Assembly (NCBI RefSeq): GCF_036884295.1
Contig: NZ_CP145608.1
Coordinates: 992,001-1,056,000, forward strand
Direction of reading: 5' to 3'
Source of the DNA: Brochothrix thermosphacta DSM 20171 = FSL F6-1036
GTDB lineage: Bacteria; Bacillota; Bacilli; Lactobacillales; Listeriaceae
DNA: 64,000 nt
The translations under genes were made by a program, and so were the position numbers. The notes under the pieces are model-generated. The model made no database searches. It saw nothing but the letters and a program-made list of their open reading frames with translations, and was not told the DNA's origin. This document shows, piece by piece, positions 3,286-28,890 of the stretch; the first letter of the stretch is position 1; each line of letters starts with the position of its first letter.

Positions 3286-3987
3286 ATGGAACGTTTTAAT
3301 AAAAGAATTGCGAGTAGTTTGGTCGTTCTGATTGGTCTTCCACTAATGACGATACCTAGTGTTAGTGCAAATGAAACCACTGTTTCAGCACCATCAGAAA
3401 TGATTATTCGTTTTCTTCCGGGATCAACTGGTCCAACGGCACCAATTAACCCAATCAATCCAGGTGAAAAACCTAAGCCTGATCCAATCGACCCTACTAA
3501 TCCTGGGACAGGTCAATCAGGAACACTAACAATTGATTTTCTGTCGAATTTCAAATTTGGTGAACAAGCATTGGGTAAAAAAGAATATTATGCGGTTAAT
3601 GAAAACCCCTACATGCAAGTAACTGACAAACGTGGTCTTTCTAACGGTTGGGTGTTAACGGCAGCCGTTTCGCCCTTTGAATCAGCAGATGGTCGTTCTC
3701 AATTAACTGGAGCAGAATTAACGCTTGGTAAGGGGAATGTAAAGTCTTTGGCTGGTAATATCTCATCAGCGCCAATTGCACAAGCGGTTACTTTTAAAAA
3801 TAACGATAGTTTCACAGTGATGAAAGCTGGCAACGGTGGTAGTCGTGGAACATGGGTCAACGTATTGAGTGGCAAAGCGGGAAGTAATGAAAAAATAAAA
3901 TTAACTGTACCCGCAGGAGCAAAAGCTAATGTAGACTATTCAGCAGTAATGAAATGGCAATTAGCAGATGCACCAGTAGGTCTATAA
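3286..3987 (+). CDS. WxL-domain surface protein
   Basis: This is a 233-aa protein starting at ATG 3286, eight bases after GGAG; an in-frame GTG at 3277 overlaps that site and is not used here. A signal peptide (SVSANE boundary) is followed by a linker of repeated Pro-Xaa-Asn/Asp-Pro units. The WxL domain has both canonical motifs (NGWVL and YSAVMKWQL), so it is the most canonical of the three paralogues. A rho-independent terminator follows directly and separates it from the DUF916 gene, which therefore may be transcribed on its own. Confidence 0.85.
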   Translation: MERFNKRIASSLVVLIGLPLMTIPSVSANETTVSAPSEMIIRFLPGSTGPTAPINPINPGEKPKPDPIDPTNPGTGQSGTLTIDFLSNFKFGEQALGKKEYYAVNENPYMQVTDKRGLSNGWVLTAAVSPFESADGRSQLTGAELTLGKGNVKSLAGNISSAPIAQAVTFKNNDSFTVMKAGNGGSRGTWVNVLSGKAGSNEKIKLTVPAGAKANVDYSAVMKWQLADAPVGL

Positions 3988-3991
3988 AAGA

Positions 3992-4041
3992 GTGGGAAGC
4001 AGGGTTACGTTATGTGACCTCTGCTTCTTCTCCCTTTTTTT
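3992..4041 (+). terminator. rho-independent terminator after WxL genes
   Basis: GAAGCAG-GGTTAC pairs with GTGACC-CTGCTTC with a small bulge, and a run of seven T follows. It lies 5 bases after the last WxL stop codon. Confidence 0.75.
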
Positions 4042-4102
4042 AATTATGAAAGTTCGCAAATAGTGGTGATTCACTATTCTTAAAATAGAAGGAGGTACAA
4101 AG

Positions 4103-5103
4103 ATGAAAAAAATGATTTATGCAATAATGGTGTTAACGATTTTACTGGGATTTAACCTGAAAGCTGAAGCTGCCTCAATGGATTACGGTGTTAAAAGTAT
4201 TTTACCTGAAAACCAATTAAATAAAAATGTGACATACTACGATTTGAAAATGAAGCCGGGTGAAACACAACAAGTTGAGTTATTATTTGAAAACAATGCA
4301 ACTGAAACGGTAACATTGAATACGAAAATACATACTGCGAGTACTAATGCAAATGGCGTTATTGACTATAGTCGTAACCTTAAAAAACAAGATGAAAGTA
4401 TGAAATACCAAATTGCAGATTATGTAAAAGGCCCTAAAACAGTGACATTAAAAGCAAAAGAAACGCGTAAAGTAGCCTATACAATTACAATGCCTAAACA
4501 CTCTTTTGATGGCATTTTACTTGGTGGTTTTCATGTGTCTAAAGAGAAAAGTAAAGCAGAAGAAAAAAAGAACAAGGCCAACAAATTAAAAATGAATTCG
4601 CCTATGTTATTGGGTTGAAATTGACAGAAACAAACAAAAAAATTAAGCCGGAATTGAAATTGATTGATGTTAAGCCAGCTTTAGAAAACTACCATACAGT
4701 TGTGAAGGCGTTTATTCAAAATCCAACAGCTTCGATTATTTCGGATTTAAAAATTGAAGCTCAAGTAACAAAAAAAGATTCTAAAACGGTATTGCATGAG
4801 ATTAAGAAAGAAAATTATGCGATGGCACCTAACACTAATTTCGGTTTTGCCATACCTTGGGATAACCAAGAATTAAAACCGGGGAAATACACAGTGAGTG
4901 TTAAAGCCGAAGATAAAACCAAAGAAAAATGGGAATTTACACGTGATTTTGAAATTAAAAAGGAAGCAGAATCATTGAATAAAGAAGCTGTAGATATTGA
5001 AAAACCATTCCCTTGGGGATGGACAATTGCAGGAGGAATAGTACTCCTAGCCATTATTGCAGGTGCTGTTTACTTTATCATTAAGAAGCGTCGTAAAAAT
5101 TAA
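4103..5103 (+). pseudogene. DUF916/DUF3324 WxL-interacting protein, split by a one-base frameshift
   Basis: Two adjacent reading frames (4103-4618 and 4615-5103) together encode one typical ~333-aa DUF916 + DUF3324 protein. The first half has a signal peptide (to about residue 24) and the peptidoglycan-binding DUF916 domain. The second half has DUF3324, a C-terminal membrane helix (GWTIAGGIVLLAIIAG) and a basic tail KKRRKN. The family-typical junction NEFAYVIGLKLTE is encoded in the second frame starting at 4591, upstream of the first frame's stop. The break falls at the AAAAA run 4588-4592, where a sixth A would restore the frame. These proteins are thought to bridge WxL proteins, peptidoglycan and membrane, so loss would affect anchoring of the whole cluster. 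It could be a true mutation, a phase-variable tract or an assembly error. Confidence 0.8.
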
Positions 5104-5120
5104 TAATTAAAATAATAGCT

Positions 5121-5168
5121 AAAACACAAGCGCATGTTTTTAAATGTGAGTTTGTGTTTTTATTTTTG
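5121..5168 (+). terminator. terminator after DUF916 gene
   Basis: AAAACACAA (5121-5129) pairs with TTGTGTTTT (5152-5160), followed by a T-rich tail. Confidence 0.7.
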
Positions 5169-5268
5169 TTTAAGTGCAATTCATTTATCGATGTAAAAAA
5201 AACTGATAAGATGAAGTCATAATGATTTTTTAACGTTCTTACAGTGAATAACATGAGGTGATTCGATA

Positions 5269-5694
5269 ATGACACAGGGTGCTATACATCATATTGAGAT
5301 ATATGTGGCAGATTTAGCTGAATCAGAAAATTTTTGGGGTTGGTTGCTAGAAAGTTTGGGTTATACGCCCTATCAAAAATGGGATAAAGGAATAAGTTGG
5401 CAATTAAAAGGTCAATATTTAGTGTTTGTGCAAGCAGAATCGCAATTTACAGAATCAGGCTATCACCGAAAACGTATTGGTTTAAATCATCTTGCGTTTA
5501 ATGTTGAGTCGTCTGCTAACGTTGACGACTATAAAGTGAAGTTAGAAGAACGTGGGAGTCGTATACTCTATTTGGATAAACATCCGTACGCAGGAGGTTC
5601 AGAAAATTACGCGATTTATTTTGAAGATCCTAACGGTATAAAAGTTGAACTTGTCGCAACAAGAGCAAAGAATGAGAATGAAGGATGTGACTGA
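5269..5694 (+). CDS. VOC-family (glyoxalase/bleomycin-resistance fold) protein
   Basis: This is a 141-aa single-domain vicinal-oxygen-chelate protein. Characteristic pieces are HHIEIYVADL at the N-terminus, LNHLAFNV in the middle and EDPNGIKVELVA at the C-terminus; the His and Glu in these are the usual metal-ligand positions. GAGGTGA precedes ATG 5269. Substrates in this family range widely (methylglyoxal adducts, fosfomycin, aromatic diols), and nothing here identifies one. The next gene starts two bases after its stop, so the two are co-transcribed. Confidence 0.8.
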   Translation: MTQGAIHHIEIYVADLAESENFWGWLLESLGYTPYQKWDKGISWQLKGQYLVFVQAESQFTESGYHRKRIGLNHLAFNVESSANVDDYKVKLEERGSRILYLDKHPYAGGSENYAIYFEDPNGIKVELVATRAKNENEGCD

Positions 5695-5696
5695 TA

Positions 5697-6416
5697 ATGA
5701 CAACAAATTTATTTTTATTCGGTGGAGGTCCGCCTTTCACAAATAAACTTGCAGAACGTTTTCGTAAAATTGCAAAAAAACACACAGGTAAAGTGGTTGT
5801 TTTATATATAGAAAAAAACTTACAAAAAGATAAAACATACACAAAAAAATACATTAATACCTTAAGGAAAAAGGGGTATAATGATTTTTGTTTGTTACCT
5901 TTAGGGACAACAAAAGTAGCAGAAGTAGAAAACAGTGCAGGTATTATAATAGGTGCAGGTAACACACTTGTTTACGCTAAGCACATTGTTGATACAGCAA
6001 TTGGTAAGGCTATAAAAGATGCGTATGAACGAGGGGTGCCAGTTGCTGGATTTTCAGCAGGTGCTTTAATTAGCCCAAGTGAATGTGTAATATCACCAAG
6101 GGATAATAAAGAACGACTTTTTAAACAACGAAAAGGGCTAGGACTTCTCAACAATACGGTGTTAGTTGCACACTATCAACAATGGGAAGAAAGCAAGCAT
6201 CTGCGAGAAACAGCAACGGCTTTTCCAACGTTTCAAAATTATGGAATAAATGAGCACACCGATATTTATTTTAGAGATGGGACGTTTTTTGAAATGGAAG
6301 GTGACGGGGTTTTTACTATTATTGACCAACAGTTGCACGCCGTTATAAATAAAGAACCTGTATCCAAATTGAAGCTATGGCAAAAAATAAGGAATTTTTT
6401 CTTAAAGGTTAGATAA
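5697..6416 (+). CDS. peptidase S51 family (dipeptidase E-like) protein
   Basis: This 239-aa protein has an N-terminal Rossmann-like start (LFLFGGGPPFTNKL), the segment IIIGAGNT and the nucleophile elbow GFSAGA expected of peptidase S51 (aspartyl dipeptidase or cyanophycinase-like serine hydrolases). A His-containing stretch (LVAHYQQWEE) and NEHTDIYFRDG follow. There is no signal peptide, so it is cytoplasmic. It is probably a peptidase for small acidic peptides, but the substrate is inferred only from the family. It lies in a two-gene operon behind the VOC protein. Confidence 0.75.
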   Translation: MTTNLFLFGGGPPFTNKLAERFRKIAKKHTGKVVVLYIEKNLQKDKTYTKKYINTLRKKGYNDFCLLPLGTTKVAEVENSAGIIIGAGNTLVYAKHIVDTAIGKAIKDAYERGVPVAGFSAGALISPSECVISPRDNKERLFKQRKGLGLLNNTVLVAHYQQWEESKHLRETATAFPTFQNYGINEHTDIYFRDGTFFEMEGDGVFTIIDQQLHAVINKEPVSKLKLWQKIRNFFLKVR

Positions 6417-6652: not shown

Positions 6653-7672
6653 ATGAGTGCAAAAGATATTGATTTTAACAATTTAGGTTTTAGTTATATA
6701 AAGACAGATTTACGTTATATTTCTTACTGGAAAGATGGTAAATGGGATGATGGGCAATTAACGGAAGATAATGTATTGCATATCTCTGAAGGCTCGCCAT
6801 CGTTACATTATGGTCAACAAAGTTTTGAGGGCTTGAAAGCATATCGTTGTAAGGATGGTTCAATTAACTTGTTCCGACCTGATAAAAATGCGGAACGTAT
6901 GCAAGCAAGTTGCGATCGTTTACTGATGCCTGAGGTTCCAACAGATGTGTTTGTAGAAGCGTGTAAACAGGTAGTGAAGGCGAATGAAGCATACCTTCCA
7001 CCATACGGCACAGGCGGTTCGTTGTATTTACGTCCATTTATCATTGGTACTGGTGATAACATAGGTGTTAATGCCGCACGTGAGTATATCTTTTCAATTT
7101 TCTGTATGCCTGTTGGCCCTTACTTTAAAGGTGGCATGACGCCACATAATTTTGTGGTATCTAGCTATGACCGTGCAGCACCTAACGGTACCGGTGCGGC
7201 TAAAGTAGGCGGTAACTATGCAGCGAGCTTATTAGCGGGTAAAGAAGCACGCGAACGTAAATTCAGTGATGCGATTTATTTAGATCCAGCAACACATACT
7301 TTAATTGAAGAGGTTGGCGCAGCTAATTTCTTTGGTATTACAGAAGATGATGAATTTGTAACGCCTTTATCACCGTCAATTTTACCAAGTATCACTAAAT
7401 ATTCATTGTTATATTTAGCAGAGCACCGCTTAGGTTTAAAAGCGACTGAAGGTTTAGTACCGATTGATGGACTGGAGCAATTTAAAGAAGCCGGAGCTTG
7501 TGGGACTGCTGCAGTTATAACACCTATCGGTGGTATTCAAAATGGTGATGACTTCCATGTGTTTTATTCAGAAACAGAAGTAGGTCCAATCACTACAAAA
7601 CTTTATGATGAATTAGTGGGTATTCAATATGGTGATGTTGTGGCACCGGACGGTTGGATTTTTAAAGTTTAA
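6653..7672 (+). CDS. ilvE: branched-chain amino acid aminotransferase
   Basis: This 339-aa fold-type IV PLP enzyme interconverts leucine, isoleucine and valine with their 2-oxo acids using glutamate/2-oxoglutarate. Diagnostic segments are LHYGQQSFEGLKAYR, the PLP-lysine region KVGGNYAASLLA, and LIEEVGAANFF. The length is usual for the family. AAGGTGGGG precedes ATG 6653. It is monocistronic, bounded by its own promoter region with a CodY-like site and a strong terminator. In meat- or food-associated Gram-positives this enzyme feeds branched-chain acid formation; that role is inferred. Confidence 0.92.
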   Translation: MSAKDIDFNNLGFSYIKTDLRYISYWKDGKWDDGQLTEDNVLHISEGSPSLHYGQQSFEGLKAYRCKDGSINLFRPDKNAERMQASCDRLLMPEVPTDVFVEACKQVVKANEAYLPPYGTGGSLYLRPFIIGTGDNIGVNAAREYIFSIFCMPVGPYFKGGMTPHNFVVSSYDRAAPNGTGAAKVGGNYAASLLAGKEARERKFSDAIYLDPATHTLIEEVGAANFFGITEDDEFVTPLSPSILPSITKYSLLYLAEHRLGLKATEGLVPIDGLEQFKEAGACGTAAVITPIGGIQNGDDFHVFYSETEVGPITTKLYDELVGIQYGDVVAPDGWIFKV

Positions 7673-7713
7673 TCACCGATTTATCAGGTTGTTAGAAAAA
7701 TAAGAAACTCTGT

Positions 7714-7753
7714 AAAAAAGCATTTTGACGTTTTGTTAAAATGCTTTTTTTTT
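7714..7753 (+). terminator. terminator after ilvE
   Basis: A 16-bp stem (AAAAAAGCATTTTGAC with GTTAAAATGCTTTTTT, one wobble pair) is followed by a continuous T run. Confidence 0.9.
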
Positions 7754-7853
7754 GCTGAAAAATAATGCGTTTCAATTGTTTGAATTATGAGTATTTTGAC
7801 GTCATTATAGAAATTATTTGAGGTGAAATAGACAAAATAGGGTCATAATATCA

Positions 7854-7929
7854 AATCGCGAACATTTGCTGGAAATTACTTTCTATTTGATAATAATTTC
7901 CGTGAATAACGGCATATCTATGCTATAAT
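7854..7929 (+). promoter_or_regulatory. xpt promoter region with PurBox-like sites
   Basis: AATCGCGAACATT (7854-7866) matches the PurBox AWWWCCGAACWWT at 11 of 13 positions. ATTTCCGTGAATA (7896-7908) is a weaker second copy overlapping the -35 position of TATAAT (7924-7929). No guanine-riboswitch core is seen, although xpt genes in relatives often have one. Purine control by PurR is therefore plausible but unproven. Confidence 0.35.
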
Positions 7930-7964
7930 AAGAGATAAATTCAGTTAATTAATAGATAATATAG

Positions 7965-8558
<594 letters not shown>

Positions 8559-8572
8559 TAAATAGCAGTACA

Positions 8573-8613
8573 ATAGCCAGGCTGATGTGGAAATCACACA
8601 TTAGTCTGGCTAT
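8573..8613 (+). terminator. stem-loop between xpt and exonuclease gene
   Basis: ATAGCCAG (8573-8580) pairs with CTGGCTAT (8606-8613), and the interior also pairs (ATGTG with CACAT). No clear T run follows, so termination may be weak or read-through may occur. Confidence 0.45.
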
Positions 8614-8643
8614 CATTAATAATGTGATAAAGGAGAGAATAGA

Positions 8644-9525
8644 GTGGAAAAAAAGAAAGTTTTATTGGTTGATGGAATGGCGTTATTGTTTCGTTCATTT
8701 TATGCAACAGCCGTTTCCAATCAATTTATGTATAATGAAGCAGGTGTCCCTACAAATGGCGTACAAGGGTTTGTAAAGCACTTGTTAACAGCGATAGAAG
8801 AACATCAATCGGACCACGTAGGTGTTTGCTGGGATTTAGGAGGAGGGACGTTTCGGAATGAAATGTGGAGCGAGTACAAAGCTCATCGTTCTGCGCCTCC
8901 TGCAGAATTAATTCCACAGTTTGATTACGCTAAAGAAATCGCAGATGCGCTTGGGTTCATTAATATTAGTTGTCAGGGGTATGAAGCTGATGATTGTTTG
9001 GGTACATTGGCAGATCATTATCGCTCTCAAAATGCGCACACAACGATTGTCACCGGTGATAAAGATATTTTACAGTTAGTGGATGAGGATACTAATGTTT
9101 GGATTTTACAAAAAGGTTATGGCAATTATAAAAAGTATGATCCGATTACATTTGTAGAAGAGTGGGAAATTCAACCAAAACAATTAATTGATTTAAAAGC
9201 ATTTATGGGTGATACAGCGGATGGTTATCCTGGTGTTAAAGGTATTGGTGAAAAAACTGCCACTGCTCTGATCAAAAAATACGGTAATGTACAAACAGTT
9301 ATTGATAACGTATCTGAGCTGTCAAAAGGTCAAATGACAAAAATACAAAATGATTTAGAGATGTTGGATATGTCTTTGAGACTTGCGGAAATAAATTGCA
9401 GTGTGCCTATAACAGTTGAAATAGATACACTGTTTTATAAAGGTTTTACAGCTGATAGCCTTGATATTTGTGGTTATTATGGCTTGAAAGTTGTACGCCG
9501 TGAAATTGAAAAATTATTAGGTTAA
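8644..9525 (+). CDS. 5'-3' exonuclease (PolI N-terminal domain-like)
   Basis: This 293-aa protein has the PIN-like flap-nuclease fold of the 5' nuclease domain of DNA polymerase I, without a polymerase domain. Acidic metal-binding motifs are visible (LLVDGMALLFRSFYA, GYEADDCLGTLA, VTGDKDILQLVDE). The helix-3-turn-helix is GDTADGYPGVKGIGEKTA. Stand-alone copies such as B. subtilis YpcP process RNA primers and flaps alongside PolI. The start is GTG 8644, preceded by AAAGGAGAG. Confidence 0.88.
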   Translation: MEKKKVLLVDGMALLFRSFYATAVSNQFMYNEAGVPTNGVQGFVKHLLTAIEEHQSDHVGVCWDLGGGTFRNEMWSEYKAHRSAPPAELIPQFDYAKEIADALGFINISCQGYEADDCLGTLADHYRSQNAHTTIVTGDKDILQLVDEDTNVWILQKGYGNYKKYDPITFVEEWEIQPKQLIDLKAFMGDTADGYPGVKGIGEKTATALIKKYGNVQTVIDNVSELSKGQMTKIQNDLEMLDMSLRLAEINCSVPITVEIDTLFYKGFTADSLDICGYYGLKVVRREIEKLLG

Positions 9526-25287: not shown

Positions 25288-25923
25288 TTAAATCGTGATG
25301 ATGCTGTCGTAATAGTCATCAAAATGATTGTCATGTGTCACCATAATAATTGTACAACCAGAAGCATTAATCTTTTTTAAGAGCATCATTATGGCTGTCG
25401 CGTTTTCATTATCAAGCGCAGCCACTGGTTCATCGGCAAAGAGTAAGCGTGGTTGGCGAAGTAAGCAGCGGGCAATCGCAACGCGTTGTTGTTCGCCACC
25501 ACTTAAACGAAAAATTGATTCAGTTAACAGGGTAGCATCTAAATTAACGGCAATTAAGGCTGCTTTACAACGTATTTGAATTTCTTTTTTTGATAATTTT
25601 TCATACTTAAGCGCAATATTTAAATTGTCGCGTACCGTTTCATTTTCCATCAATCCGAAATTTTGTACGATAAAACTAATTTCTCTACGGTACAAGCGAC
25701 TTTTTTTATACCACTGTAAGCGTGTGACATCCTTTTCATCGAAGTAGATTTTACCATTACTAGCAGGTTCAATCAGCGCTAAACAATTGAGTAAGGTTGT
25801 TTTACCAGAGCCGCTTTTTCCCTTAATTGCAACAAATTCCCCTGCTGAAATCGTTAAATTAAGCTGTTCAAACAGATAATTGTCATCAAATTGTTTAGTG
25901 AGTTTGTCCATCGTTACTTTCAT
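25288..25923 (-). CDS. ABC transporter ATPase of the lactococcin-972 group
   Basis: This 211-aa ATPase has Walker A GKSGSGKTTLLN, signature LSGGEQQRVAIARCLL and Walker B LLFADEPVAALD. Its ATG overlaps the stop of the preceding membrane-protein gene (ATGA), so the two are translationally coupled. It is a MacB/LolD-like ATPase, and context with a DUF1430-type membrane protein and a lactococcin-972-like gene assigns it to the bacteriocin export/immunity group. It appears intact although the bacteriocin gene is broken. Confidence 0.85.
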   Translation of the reverse strand: MKVTMDKLTKQFDDNYLFEQLNLTISAGEFVAIKGKSGSGKTTLLNCLALIEPASNGKIYFDEKDVTRLQWYKKSRLYRREISFIVQNFGLMENETVRDNLNIALKYEKLSKKEIQIRCKAALIAVNLDATLLTESIFRLSGGEQQRVAIARCLLRQPRLLFADEPVAALDNENATAIMMLLKKINASGCTIIMVTHDNHFDDYYDSIITI

Positions 25924-28013
25924 AAGAGACTTCCTTTCAATAACTTGTATTTAATGCGATATAAACACACATAAAGGATTGTAAATTCGATAAAGCCGAT
26001 TAGTGTAAAGAGGCCTGTGTTCACCGAACGTTGCGTAATAATTAAATTGTAAGCCGTTAATAGCAACCAAGGGCTACAACCGATCAAGAAAAGCAAGCAG
26101 TAGATACGAGTAATTGGATAACCTGCTTGTAGAAGTACCTGTGCTTTTTGGATGTTTAACAACAGATAATTGTGTATAAAAGATAACGTTAACAGCAAGT
26201 ATAAACTCAGCGTGATAATAATAATGGTGAGAAATAAAGAAATTACTAAATTATGATCAGTGAAGCGCTCTTTCAAAAAAATTTGAGCCGGGATAATTTC
26301 GGGATAAGTTTTTTGTAACTGATTTTTTTCAACAATGTTTTTAATAGCGCTCATTGATGTTTGAGTGTTCCCGATAAAAAATGTATCTGCGCGACCACTA
26401 ATACTATCAGCATAGGCTGATAAATTCTTATCGACATTATTTTGTGTTAATACCTTTATGAGTGGATTTTTAAGCGGACGTTGATGGGGTAAGAGAGTGA
26501 GCAGGGCTTGGTTATCGCGTATCTCAATGTAGCGGAATTTAACTTTTTGCGGCGTTGCTTTTAAACCGAAATTTTTTCCAACTTCATTATTTTGAAAATT
26601 ATGTTCTTTTTCAATATAGGATTTAATTTCCGGTAATAAAGCATAGTAAGTTGTCGGAACAAGTGTAATTAATGTTTTTTCATGGTTGTTAATTTTAATT
26701 TCAGTGCCATTAATATCATATAGGGGATTTAACTTCAAGTAATCAGGCGAAATCAACAGAACATTATTTTCAAATTTTTCATGTCCAGGATTATACTCAT
26801 CATCTAATAATTTATGTTCGGTATCATCCTCAAGTCGAAATAGTAACATCCCATGATTGTAGTAGTCATTGAATAAGTGGTTGGTACGTACTAAATTATC
26901 TAATTGAGCGTTATCATCCGTGGAGGACACGTCGGATAGTAAAGGTAAATAAAAGCGATGTTCAACTGCTTTGAGTGCGCGTTGCGTTTGTGCTTGTTCG
27001 ACAATGAAATAATAGATTTTTTGGCCGCTGAACTGAAGTGTAAATAGTAAAAAGATACTTAAAATGATTTTGACAGCGAGTAAGAGGACGACGAGTTTTT
27101 TTTGTGGCGATTCGCCTTTTGATGAGCGTGAGTTGAGGGGATAAAAAATTAGAAAACTGGCGATTAATAAATAAGTCAGTAATAACACGGTTAAACCAAG
27201 TAATGTCGCAAATATGGCGATGTTAAAAGCAGGTTTAATAGCGTTTATAAAGTAATAGTAGCTTGCGAGACTGAAAGTAATCAATGGAATCATCAATGCA
27301 TAAGGCAATTGGCGTTTGATAATGTCACTCAGTAACGTAATATGGCGATAACCGACCATAAGTTTAATGCTGTTTTGGCGATATTTAATATAATAATCGC
27401 TGACAATGATGAACATTAAAATCCCGCTTGTGATGAAGATACTAAGAAAAATTATTATTTTAGAAAAGAGCACTTGTGGATGAGATACCTCGGATTGCTT
27501 ATCTAGTGCGATGTTAACGCCCGTTTTATTTGAGAGGTCTTTTATTATTACAGAAATATGAGGCGATTGTTTACTTAACTGAATAACGTAATTGCCACTT
27601 TTTAGTTCCGTATTCTTTAGGGAGGTGAGAGGGGAAAGGAGTAGTTGATTGAATTCTGAATAGACATGTTTTTTATTTGTGTACTGTTCATTACCGAAGG
27701 GTTTCAAATCGAGGCCAGCAGTGATTTTTTGTTTATGATGGTTTAACTGGGCGTATACCATCAGTTGATTCGTTATTGAACTTACTGATTCTTTGTAGAT
27801 ATTAAAATGATAGGTTTGACTGCTTGTTATCATTTTTGCTGTCCAATCGTTAGCAGTTTGAACATCTGCGTCATCAGCTACTGTGACGGTATAGGCACTT
27901 TCTTTTTTGATAGCGTTATATGTTTGGAATTGGTGTGTTGTTAAAAAAAGTTTTGTGGAAAAAAATAATAACAAGGCGATCGTGAAAAAACTTAAAATAA
28001 AAGCCTTTTTCAT
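25920..28013 (-). CDS. bacteriocin-associated integral membrane protein (DUF1430, lactococcin-972 type)
   Basis: This ~697-aa protein has an N-terminal membrane segment (AFILSFFTIALLLFFS) and a ~140-residue extracellular domain. Three membrane helices lie about residues 190-310, with another near 315-335. A second extracellular domain follows, and three C-terminal helices end the protein. This FtsX/MacB-like layout matches the putative immunity/export membrane proteins found beside lactococcin-972-type bacteriocins. ATG 28013 follows AAAGGTG; the GTG at 28022 lies within that site. It sits directly downstream of the decayed bacteriocin gene on the same strand and upstream of the ATPase. No stops or frameshifts are visible. 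It is either immunity or export, and family knowledge does not settle which. Confidence 0.8.
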   Translation of the reverse strand: MKKAFILSFFTIALLLFFSTKLFLTTHQFQTYNAIKKESAYTVTVADDADVQTANDWTAKMITSSQTYHFNIYKESVSSITNQLMVYAQLNHHKQKITAGLDLKPFGNEQYTNKKHVYSEFNQLLLSPLTSLKNTELKSGNYVIQLSKQSPHISVIIKDLSNKTGVNIALDKQSEVSHPQVLFSKIIIFLSIFITSGILMFIIVSDYYIKYRQNSIKLMVGYRHITLLSDIIKRQLPYALMIPLITFSLASYYYFINAIKPAFNIAIFATLLGLTVLLLTYLLIASFLIFYPLNSRSSKGESPQKKLVVLLLAVKIILSIFLLFTLQFSGQKIYYFIVEQAQTQRALKAVEHRFYLPLLSDVSSTDDNAQLDNLVRTNHLFNDYYNHGMLLFRLEDDTEHKLLDDEYNPGHEKFENNVLLISPDYLKLNPLYDINGTEIKINNHEKTLITLVPTTYYALLPEIKSYIEKEHNFQNNEVGKNFGLKATPQKVKFRYIEIRDNQALLTLLPHQRPLKNPLIKVLTQNNVDKNLSAYADSISGRADTFFIGNTQTSMSAIKNIVEKNQLQKTYPEIIPAQIFLKERFTDHNLVISLFLTIIIITLSLYLLLTLSFIHNYLLLNIQKAQVLLQAGYPITRIYCLLFLIGCSPWLLLTAYNLIITQRSVNTGLFTLIGFIEFTILYVCLYRIKYKLLKGSLL

Positions 28014-28027
28014 ACGTAACACACCTT

Positions 28028-28405
28028 TCAGAGGTTATCGAGTAGCCAATACGAATTATTTGAAGAATAGCTCCAATACCAAGGCGTTTTAGCTGTTGCT
28101 GTGATTTTTGGATTTTTCCAATCAGAGCGTATACTCTTGCTATTCATCATCGAAGTTGTTCGATGTTGTTTCTTATTGTGGTCATATTCGCTTTTTTGCC
28201 TAGCTTGCCCCCAAATTGACCATTGCACCATGTACCTGAAAGTGTCGCCACCCACCTTAACGATTTTTCGAGTTAATGAATGGTTACTGCTACTATTTTT
28301 TCTGTCGTATAAGCTTGCCCAGTTTCACTTGTAGCATAGGCGGTTGTTGCGAGAGAAGTTGCGATAAAGATGACTACGATGAGGATGATTTATTTTTTTA
28401 TTTAT
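28028..28405 (-). pseudogene. decayed lactococcin-972-type bacteriocin precursor
   Basis: The mature part reads VGGDTFRYMVQWSIW, KSEYDHNKKQH and SKSIRSDWKNPK and ends SYWLLDNL with stop at 28028. This is the lactococcin-972 pattern (VGGGTW-like start, YxHxxKxH, RSxW). A perfect ribosome binding site (GGAGGA, complement of 28412-28417) faces ATA at 28405-28403 where ATG is expected. A signal-peptide sequence (IILIVVIFIATSLATTAYA) is present but in another frame, with TAA just ahead of it. A second frame change occurs between about 28263 and 28310. Lost start plus two frameshifts make it non-functional as read. Confidence 0.72.
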
Positions 28406-28436
28406 TTGAAATCCTCCTTTTCTTATGATTGTGTCA

Positions 28437-28465
28437 AGTATACAGTAAATAGAATCTGAGTACAA
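28437..28465 (-). promoter_or_regulatory. sigma-A promoter of the lactococcin-972-like locus
   Basis: On the minus strand TTGTAC (complement of 28460-28465), a 17-base spacer and TATACT (complement of 28437-28442), about 32 bases before the broken start codon. The promoter looks intact, so the transporter genes may still be transcribed. Confidence 0.6.
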
Positions 28466-28523
28466 TGTAAAGGGAATTAAGTGTCGATAAAAGCTTTTTT
28501 GGAACTGAAAAAGATAGAGGGAA

Positions 28524-28849
28524 GGAACTCTCAAGGCATTAACATAAGGTTTGGTACTCTCAAGGCGTTAACATAAGGATTGGTACTCAATTTCTTGAAG
28601 GATAGGTACTCTCAAGGCGTTAACATAAGGATTGGTACTCAATTGCTATCACAATTTCCGTCCCATACTGTTCTCGTAAGCGGATAAATCCGCTACGATA
28701 GTAGCAATTCGCAACGATAAGAGCAGAGGATTGGTACTCAATTGCTATCGCAATTTCCGTCCCATACTGTCTTTGTAAGCTCATAAATTCGCACAATGTC
28801 AGCACCCATACTACTCTCGTAAGCGGATAAATCCGCTACGATAGTAGCA
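28524..28849. repeat. patch of three interspersed repeat types
   Basis: Type A (29 bp, containing CTCTCAAGGCGTTAACATAA) occurs at 28524-28552, 28553-28581 (tandem) and 28605-28633. Type B (about 43 bp, containing CAATTTCCGTCCCATACTGT) occurs at 28629-28671 and 28728-28770. Type C, a near-palindrome with core AGCGGATAAATCCGCT, occurs at 28672-28706 and 28813-28849. The copies are nearly identical within each type, so duplication looks recent. Confidence 0.8.
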
Positions 28850-28852
28850 GTC

Positions 28853-28890
28853 TTAACGTTTTCTTAACACGGGGGGCTATTTTCTTAACA
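28853..28890 (+). promoter_or_regulatory. direct repeats upstream of kdpF (candidate response-regulator site)
   Basis: TTAACG (28853), TTAACA (28864) and TTAACA (28885) are spaced 11 and 21 bases apart, that is one and two helical turns. The last two lie in identical 12-mers TTTTCTTAACAC (28859-28870 and 28880-28891). Same-face direct repeats are typical of OmpR/PhoB-family regulators such as KdpE. Two TTAAAC elements follow nearer the start. Confidence 0.5.

Follow-up and report, generated by a model that had tools for sequence, protein, structure and literature searches.

Why would a bacterium keep two transporter genes intact behind a bacteriocin gene that has been destroyed? The question is raised by a locus, here called locus A, in a 64,000-nucleotide window (the whole stretch of DNA that was analysed) from the chromosome of Brochothrix thermosphacta DSM 20171. 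The host is a meat-spoilage bacterium, and its genome of 2.56 Mb lies on one contig and is rated 99.96% complete. As shown in Table 1, locus A consists of a broken bacteriocin gene followed by the genes of a permease and an ABC ATPase (hereafter the pair).

Table 1. Features of locus A, in positions of the window.
Feature	Position	Strand	Evidence
Broken lactococcin-972-like bacteriocin gene	28028..28415	minus	sequence, frames, B. campestris alignment, profile, resampling control
Mature bacteriocin region, 75-aa open frame from internal GTG, without leader	28028..28255	minus	
697-aa permease, about seven hydrophobic segments	25920..28013	minus	full-length TIGR01654 match below cut-off
211-aa ABC ATPase	25288..25923	minus	TIGR03608 236.1 bits (cut-off 254.85)

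The bacteriocin gene has a Shine-Dalgarno site (AAAAGGAGG on the minus strand), and the codon at the usual spacing behind it is ATA, not ATG, GTG or TTG. An in-frame TAA follows three codons past the ATA. A hydrophobic Sec-type leader, in the same frame as the ATA, ends at a TAA before the mature region, which is open in another frame; in the homologue from B. campestris, by contrast, Sec leader and mature domain lie in a single frame. The ATA and the frame difference had both been described in a sequence-only reading of this DNA and were confirmed when we read the sequence directly. The lesions it listed are real, and the list was incomplete, the early in-frame TAA being one extra. As sequenced, the gene cannot yield a secreted product, and we consider it almost certainly dead.

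The remnant can still be assigned to a family. Over 63 aa, the mature frame of locus A is 67% identical to the intact bacteriocin (123 aa) of B. campestris; the best local score of this alignment is 254, whereas 1000 Markov-resampled sequences reached 58 at most. A survey profile, made from the bacteriocin ORFs that neighbour other permeases and leaving out locus A, matched the mature region at 34.9 bits (E 4.2e-10) and the B. campestris homologue at 29.2 bits. Because of this alignment, the resampling control and the profile match, the remnant is not a chance resemblance. A third relative, in L147, has a C-terminal motif block in common with it. The locus A frame scored 21.2 bits against TIGR01653 (cut-off 32.1) and 13.4 bits against PF09683 (E 0.12, cut-off 22), and the B. 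campestris homologue reached 22.1 bits against TIGR01653 and had no Pfam match. The assignment to the lactococcin-972 type made from sequence alone therefore stands as homology to the bacteriocins beside TIGR01654 permeases, and fails at the curated cut-offs. Since these were missed, we use the name lactococcin-972-like: by its sequence the peptide is a divergent branch of this type, and locus A is a decayed lactococcin-972-like operon. On the question of a beta-sandwich fold, the predicted structure of the B. campestris bacteriocin was poor (mean pLDDT 50.1). Lcn972 itself is described as binding lipid II, and lipid II binding and inhibition of septum formation are given as traits of the lactococcin 972 family (PMC9964109).

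The frames of both pair genes are open throughout, as had been claimed, and the ATPase start overlaps the permease stop. The permease matches TIGR01654 (bacteriocin-associated integral membrane protein) over residues 20-695 at 72.9 bits (E 1.9e-20, cut-off 189.35). The DUF1430 check proposed for it earlier came out negative: the locus A permease has no Pfam match, DUF1430 and FtsX included, although in the alignment of its family DUF1430 matches 28 of 36 members (FtsX, 4 of 36). Searched against the PDB, a profile of the 36 permeases reached MacB chains with E values from 0.0032 upwards, and the predicted structure of the permease was poor (mean pLDDT 41.6). For the ATPase, TIGR03608 (lactococcin 972 ABC ATPase) was best among the 208 NCBIfam models listed. 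Walker A, signature, D-loop and H-switch were found by pattern; the Walker B pattern was unmatched, and a stretch LLFADE is present there by eye. Its best scores in the PDB were to ABCB1 multidrug transporters, then, among separate ATPase chains, to MJ0796, LolD, BceA, PsdA and FtsE. The promoter, said earlier to look intact, was not borne out: our scan found no site upstream of the bacteriocin gene on its strand, and the whole region, with 14 promoter-like sites against a shuffle mean of 16.3, is no richer than shuffles. The sole promoter-like stretch seen by eye is TTGTAC-17-TATACT.

The genus Brochothrix is described as having two species (PMC12562394). Named genomes were scanned twice: the first pass gave no relative, and the second, which used an alignment of three rows, gave one, B. 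campestris; the plasmid collection searched gave no match. B. campestris FSL F6-1037 shares the three genes of locus A and their order (L011/L178, NZ_AODH01000017.1). Unlike in B. thermosphacta, the bacteriocin is intact, the permease is split into three frame pieces (the assembly is a draft) and the chromosomal neighbourhood is different. The B. campestris locus A lies on the purD contig, and the purD counterpart in B. thermosphacta is about 340 kb from its own locus A. The deoD gene of B. campestris is on another contig, with no such locus within the 14 kb viewed, and kdpA was not found in the draft.

The B. thermosphacta genome has three TIGR01654 loci. Locus B (L009) is intact in all three genes (bacteriocin 124 aa, permease 711 aa, ATPase 205 aa), and its B. 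campestris counterpart (L022/L159) is intact as well. In locus C (L010) the pair is intact, and bacteriocin leader and mature part are in different frames; this mature part passes the Pfam cut-off (40.5 bits, cut-off 22) and misses that of NCBIfam (27 bits, cut-off 32.1). B. campestris also has a third locus (L157), in which the two pair genes are broken and no bacteriocin was recognised.

Between the two species, amino-acid identity at locus A is 67% for the ATPase, 46-51% for the permease and 67% for the mature bacteriocin. At locus B it is 66% for the ATPase, 60% for the permease, 63% for the whole bacteriocin and 84% for its mature part. Since the dead mature part equals the ATPase of its locus in conservation and exceeds the permease, the bacteriocin of locus A looks to have been lost recently relative to the species split. 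Against a recent loss, the mature part is less conserved in locus A than in locus B, which may reflect early relaxation. LWL85 estimates of dN/dS for locus A (0.17-0.27) are not decisive, as synonymous sites are saturated; third-position identity of the locus A and B genes is 37-56%.

We then asked how such loci decay across the order. TIGR01654 had matches in 12 of the 36 family genomes and in 131 of the 395 genomes from the order. The survey took the matches listed among the 395 genomes, a list that covers the stronger matches, with two candidates scored per genome, plus the loci of the two Brochothrix species, and omitted duplicates and fragments (L001-L008, L018, L021-L023, L025-L029, L055, L178). 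This gave, among the matches listed, 153 permease rows from 148 stretches, and 76 of them had bacteriocin-like sequence upstream. Among these 76, again for the matches listed, 51 were wholly intact, 16 had a broken bacteriocin and an intact pair, nine had an intact bacteriocin and at least one broken pair gene, and none had both bacteriocin and pair broken. These counts (51/16/9) follow the ORF rule for the ATPase; a stricter first rule gave 47/16/13. The B. thermosphacta genome accounts for two of the 16 bacteriocin-broken rows; the other 14 are spread over 12 genomes in four other families. Their lesions vary between the loci compared (missing 5' ends, stops, frame breaks). The other 77 rows had no recognised bacteriocin, among them at least one, L156, whose divergent bacteriocin was missed by the profile; 64 of the 77, among the matches listed, have an intact pair, and the remaining 13, with a pair gene broken, absent or cut off, may include loci in which everything has decayed. 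When 56 pairs without a recognised bacteriocin were compared, the permease in 34 of them shared 70% identity or more with that of a locus whose bacteriocin is intact, so that absence of the whole bacteriocin gene is common too.

If genes were lost in proportion to their length (about 110, 700 and 210 codons for bacteriocin, permease and ATPase), the bacteriocin share of single-gene losses would be 0.108, as the pair offers about eight times its codons. Observed bacteriocin losses were 16 of 25 (p=2.6e-10). They were 14 of 23 without the B. thermosphacta genome (p=9e-9), 16 of 29 under the stricter ATPase rule (p=5.7e-9), and 12 of 21 without the B. thermosphacta genome and two doubtful rows (p=2.8e-7). 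Doubtful rows are L136 and L138 among the 16 and L151 (with an ATPase-size ORF) among the nine; L127 was scored bacteriocin-intact despite an in-frame stretch missing from its leader. All these values concern rows from related species, which are not fully independent, and a permease-first search, which may overlook badly decayed permeases. Draft errors may make single broken rows of either class; they would not create the excess, because the longer pair should be hit more often. As the bacteriocin share of losses far exceeds the 11% or so given by gene length, the survey supports the view that the pair is preferentially kept, as retained immunity would predict.

By gene content locus A fits the immunity-only (cheater-type) kind of locus, with the bacteriocin lost and the pair intact. 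Our main reading, to which we give a probability of roughly 65%, is that the pair is kept as putative immunity against the locus A bacteriocin, or a close relative of it, that neighbouring cells produce. Production would have been lost, and the retained pair would protect the cell from the peptide of its neighbours. The peptide would leave the cell by Sec, and the pair, a putative MacB/BceAB-like machine, would clear it from the membrane or take it off lipid II, to which Lcn972 binds outside the cell according to the literature. Sec is the presumed secretion route of lactococcin-972-type peptides, with supporting data for streptococcin B (PMC11796350), and mediterrocin is reported to carry a Sec-type signal (PMC12345188). 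Because of the presumed Sec secretion and of lipid II binding outside the cell, the pair is probably not needed for export. In L. lactis NZ9000, plasmids with the Lcn972 cluster are reported to raise the Lcn972 MIC to 800-1600 AU/mL from 12.5 without them; the cluster in question is the bacteriocin gene plus orf2-orf3, so the value concerns the whole cluster and not the pair alone (PMC4055356).

Several observations bear on this reading from either side. The lesions of locus A beside an intact B. campestris homologue favour it, as do the survey counts, the variety of lesions among the loci compared, the permease similarity in 34 of the 56 pairs and, for the whole cluster, the Lcn972 MIC values. 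Against it, the permease of locus A is less conserved (46-51%) than either the ATPase or the mature bacteriocin (67% each), a reverse class exists (9-13 rows among the matches listed, the B. campestris locus A included), and locus A has no promoter-like site upstream. The functions of the B and C genes are described as experimentally unverified in any lactococcin 972 locus, and pneumococci with the pair only were inhibited by producers, which the authors attribute to a pair that was not switched on (PMC11796350). The earlier proposal of selection to keep immunity thus holds in part: the loss with retention is real and the survey favours selective retention, while the immunity function of the locus A pair is only putative. 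A cheater state proper would need producers in the same population; the population considered here is a single B. thermosphacta genome.

Other explanations must be weighed. It is conceivable that the whole operon is decaying and that the pair has merely not been hit yet. The loss looks recent, as the mature region has kept 67% identity with its B. campestris counterpart, and a single inactivating event would fall in the bacteriocin with a chance of 0.11 (0.001 for three independent events), so locus A by itself is compatible with neutral decay. The order survey, with bacteriocin loss far above the gene-length share, speaks against such a snapshot, which we regard as unlikely. The main job of the pair may also lie elsewhere, for example in general envelope defence against other lipid-II-directed antimicrobials, with the link to the bacteriocin secondary. 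In at least 60 of the 153 rows (64 counted) an intact pair stands without a recognised bacteriocin, the profile of the permease family reaches MacB (PDB, E 0.0032), and the ATPase matches BceA among others. Yet 34 of the 56 such permeases compared share 70% identity or more with the permease of a locus whose bacteriocin is intact, and the operon order is conserved; we hold this explanation to be quite improbable.

Two further readings would restore a product of the bacteriocin gene. A sequencing or assembly error, with the gene intact in the cell, is suggested by the leader/mature frame break that locus C likewise has. Locus A, however, has three separate defects in a single-contig genome, two of which are not simple frame breaks, which leaves an error very improbable. 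The cell might still produce the mature region, through recoding or a start at the internal GTG, for a non-secreted role, since its frame is open and conserved and 12 of the 16 broken rows are stop-free over at least 50 of the 66 profile positions. A form with the leader would need several recoding events, and the lesions in broken relatives are of unrelated kinds; we give this hardly any weight. Programmed frameshifting, which the leader/mature split of locus C had suggested, was ruled out by the further defects in locus A. Phase variation by slippage in A-runs at the leader start was also considered. As the lesions of the relatives compared differ (A-run breaks in a few, deletions and stops in others), they have no common phase-variation switch.

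Like locus A, the partial streptococcin clusters of S. pneumoniae have lost the bacteriocin and kept permease and ABC genes (Rezaei Javan et al. 2018, PMC6120550), and the cheater idea has already been proposed for pneumococcal lactococcin-972-type clusters in the same paper. Streptococcin B is reported complete in 414 of 571 genomes and with the other two genes only in 157 of 571 (PMC11796350). The pneumococcal case is polymorphic within the species and the bacteriocin gene is mostly absent, whereas Brochothrix has a readable pseudogene in one genome. Like locus A, the L. lactis plasmid pBL1 has a bacteriocin gene followed by genes of a presumed ABC immunity transporter (lcn972, orf2, orf3; PMC4055356); unlike pBL1, locus A is chromosomal and divergent, and its bacteriocin is dead. 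In P. (Cutibacterium) acnes clade II a gene with a lactococcin-972 domain alone is deleted and the rest of the island is kept, as described in PMC4746626. That organism belongs to another phylum, and the remaining genes are called transport genes there, possibly for iron. Our literature search, over the titles and abstract openings listed, found a description neither of Brochothrix locus A nor of an order-wide count of losses. Since loss of the bacteriocin with the pair kept is already published for pneumococcus, the Brochothrix case is a further member of that pattern, together with a modest general result.

More generally, and more tentatively, we put it at a little short of even odds that in Lactobacillales the lactococcin-972-type pair would be a self-standing defence module at lipid II that persists after its bacteriocin is gone, with the toxin lost repeatedly, often at the leader or start, and the pair selected; two of the three B. 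thermosphacta loci are of this kind. Locus A adds a clear pseudogene case from a food-spoilage genus to the pattern of toxin lost and pair kept, and the survey puts figures on the imbalance of these losses in a sample from a single order. The intact and broken versions in the two Brochothrix species are material for testing the claim that the pair confers immunity.

Several adjoining genes of the B. campestris FSL F6-1037 draft, among them the permease gene of the locus homologous to the bacteriocin locus, were found in frame pieces (L011, the stretch holding that homologue, 3389-6040 and 6843-8942), which suggests assembly errors in that part of the draft. Within family f4 of the order-wide survey, loci L085, L089 and L090, beside which no bacteriocin was recognised, each have two TIGR01654-type permease genes in tandem, followed by a single ATPase gene.

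At locus C, another TIGR01654 locus of the B. thermosphacta genome, a short stretch with inverted ends resembles a small insertion element (see the table). Its flanks carry a 20-base direct duplication.

The repeat in the window is built of modular units of about 45-66 bases. When window 28500-28760 was compared with the whole genome, 81 matches were obtained, part of them tandem, and the repeat looks like a repeat family of the B. thermosphacta genome.

Positions of the two repeat-like features
Feature	Coordinates	Location
Modular interspersed repeat	window 28520-28860	flanked by the kdp genes on one side and the bacteriocin locus on the other
Stretch of ~130 bases, inverted ends	L010 (stretch with locus C), reverse complement of about 8200-8520	between the broken bacteriocin gene and the permease gene of locus C
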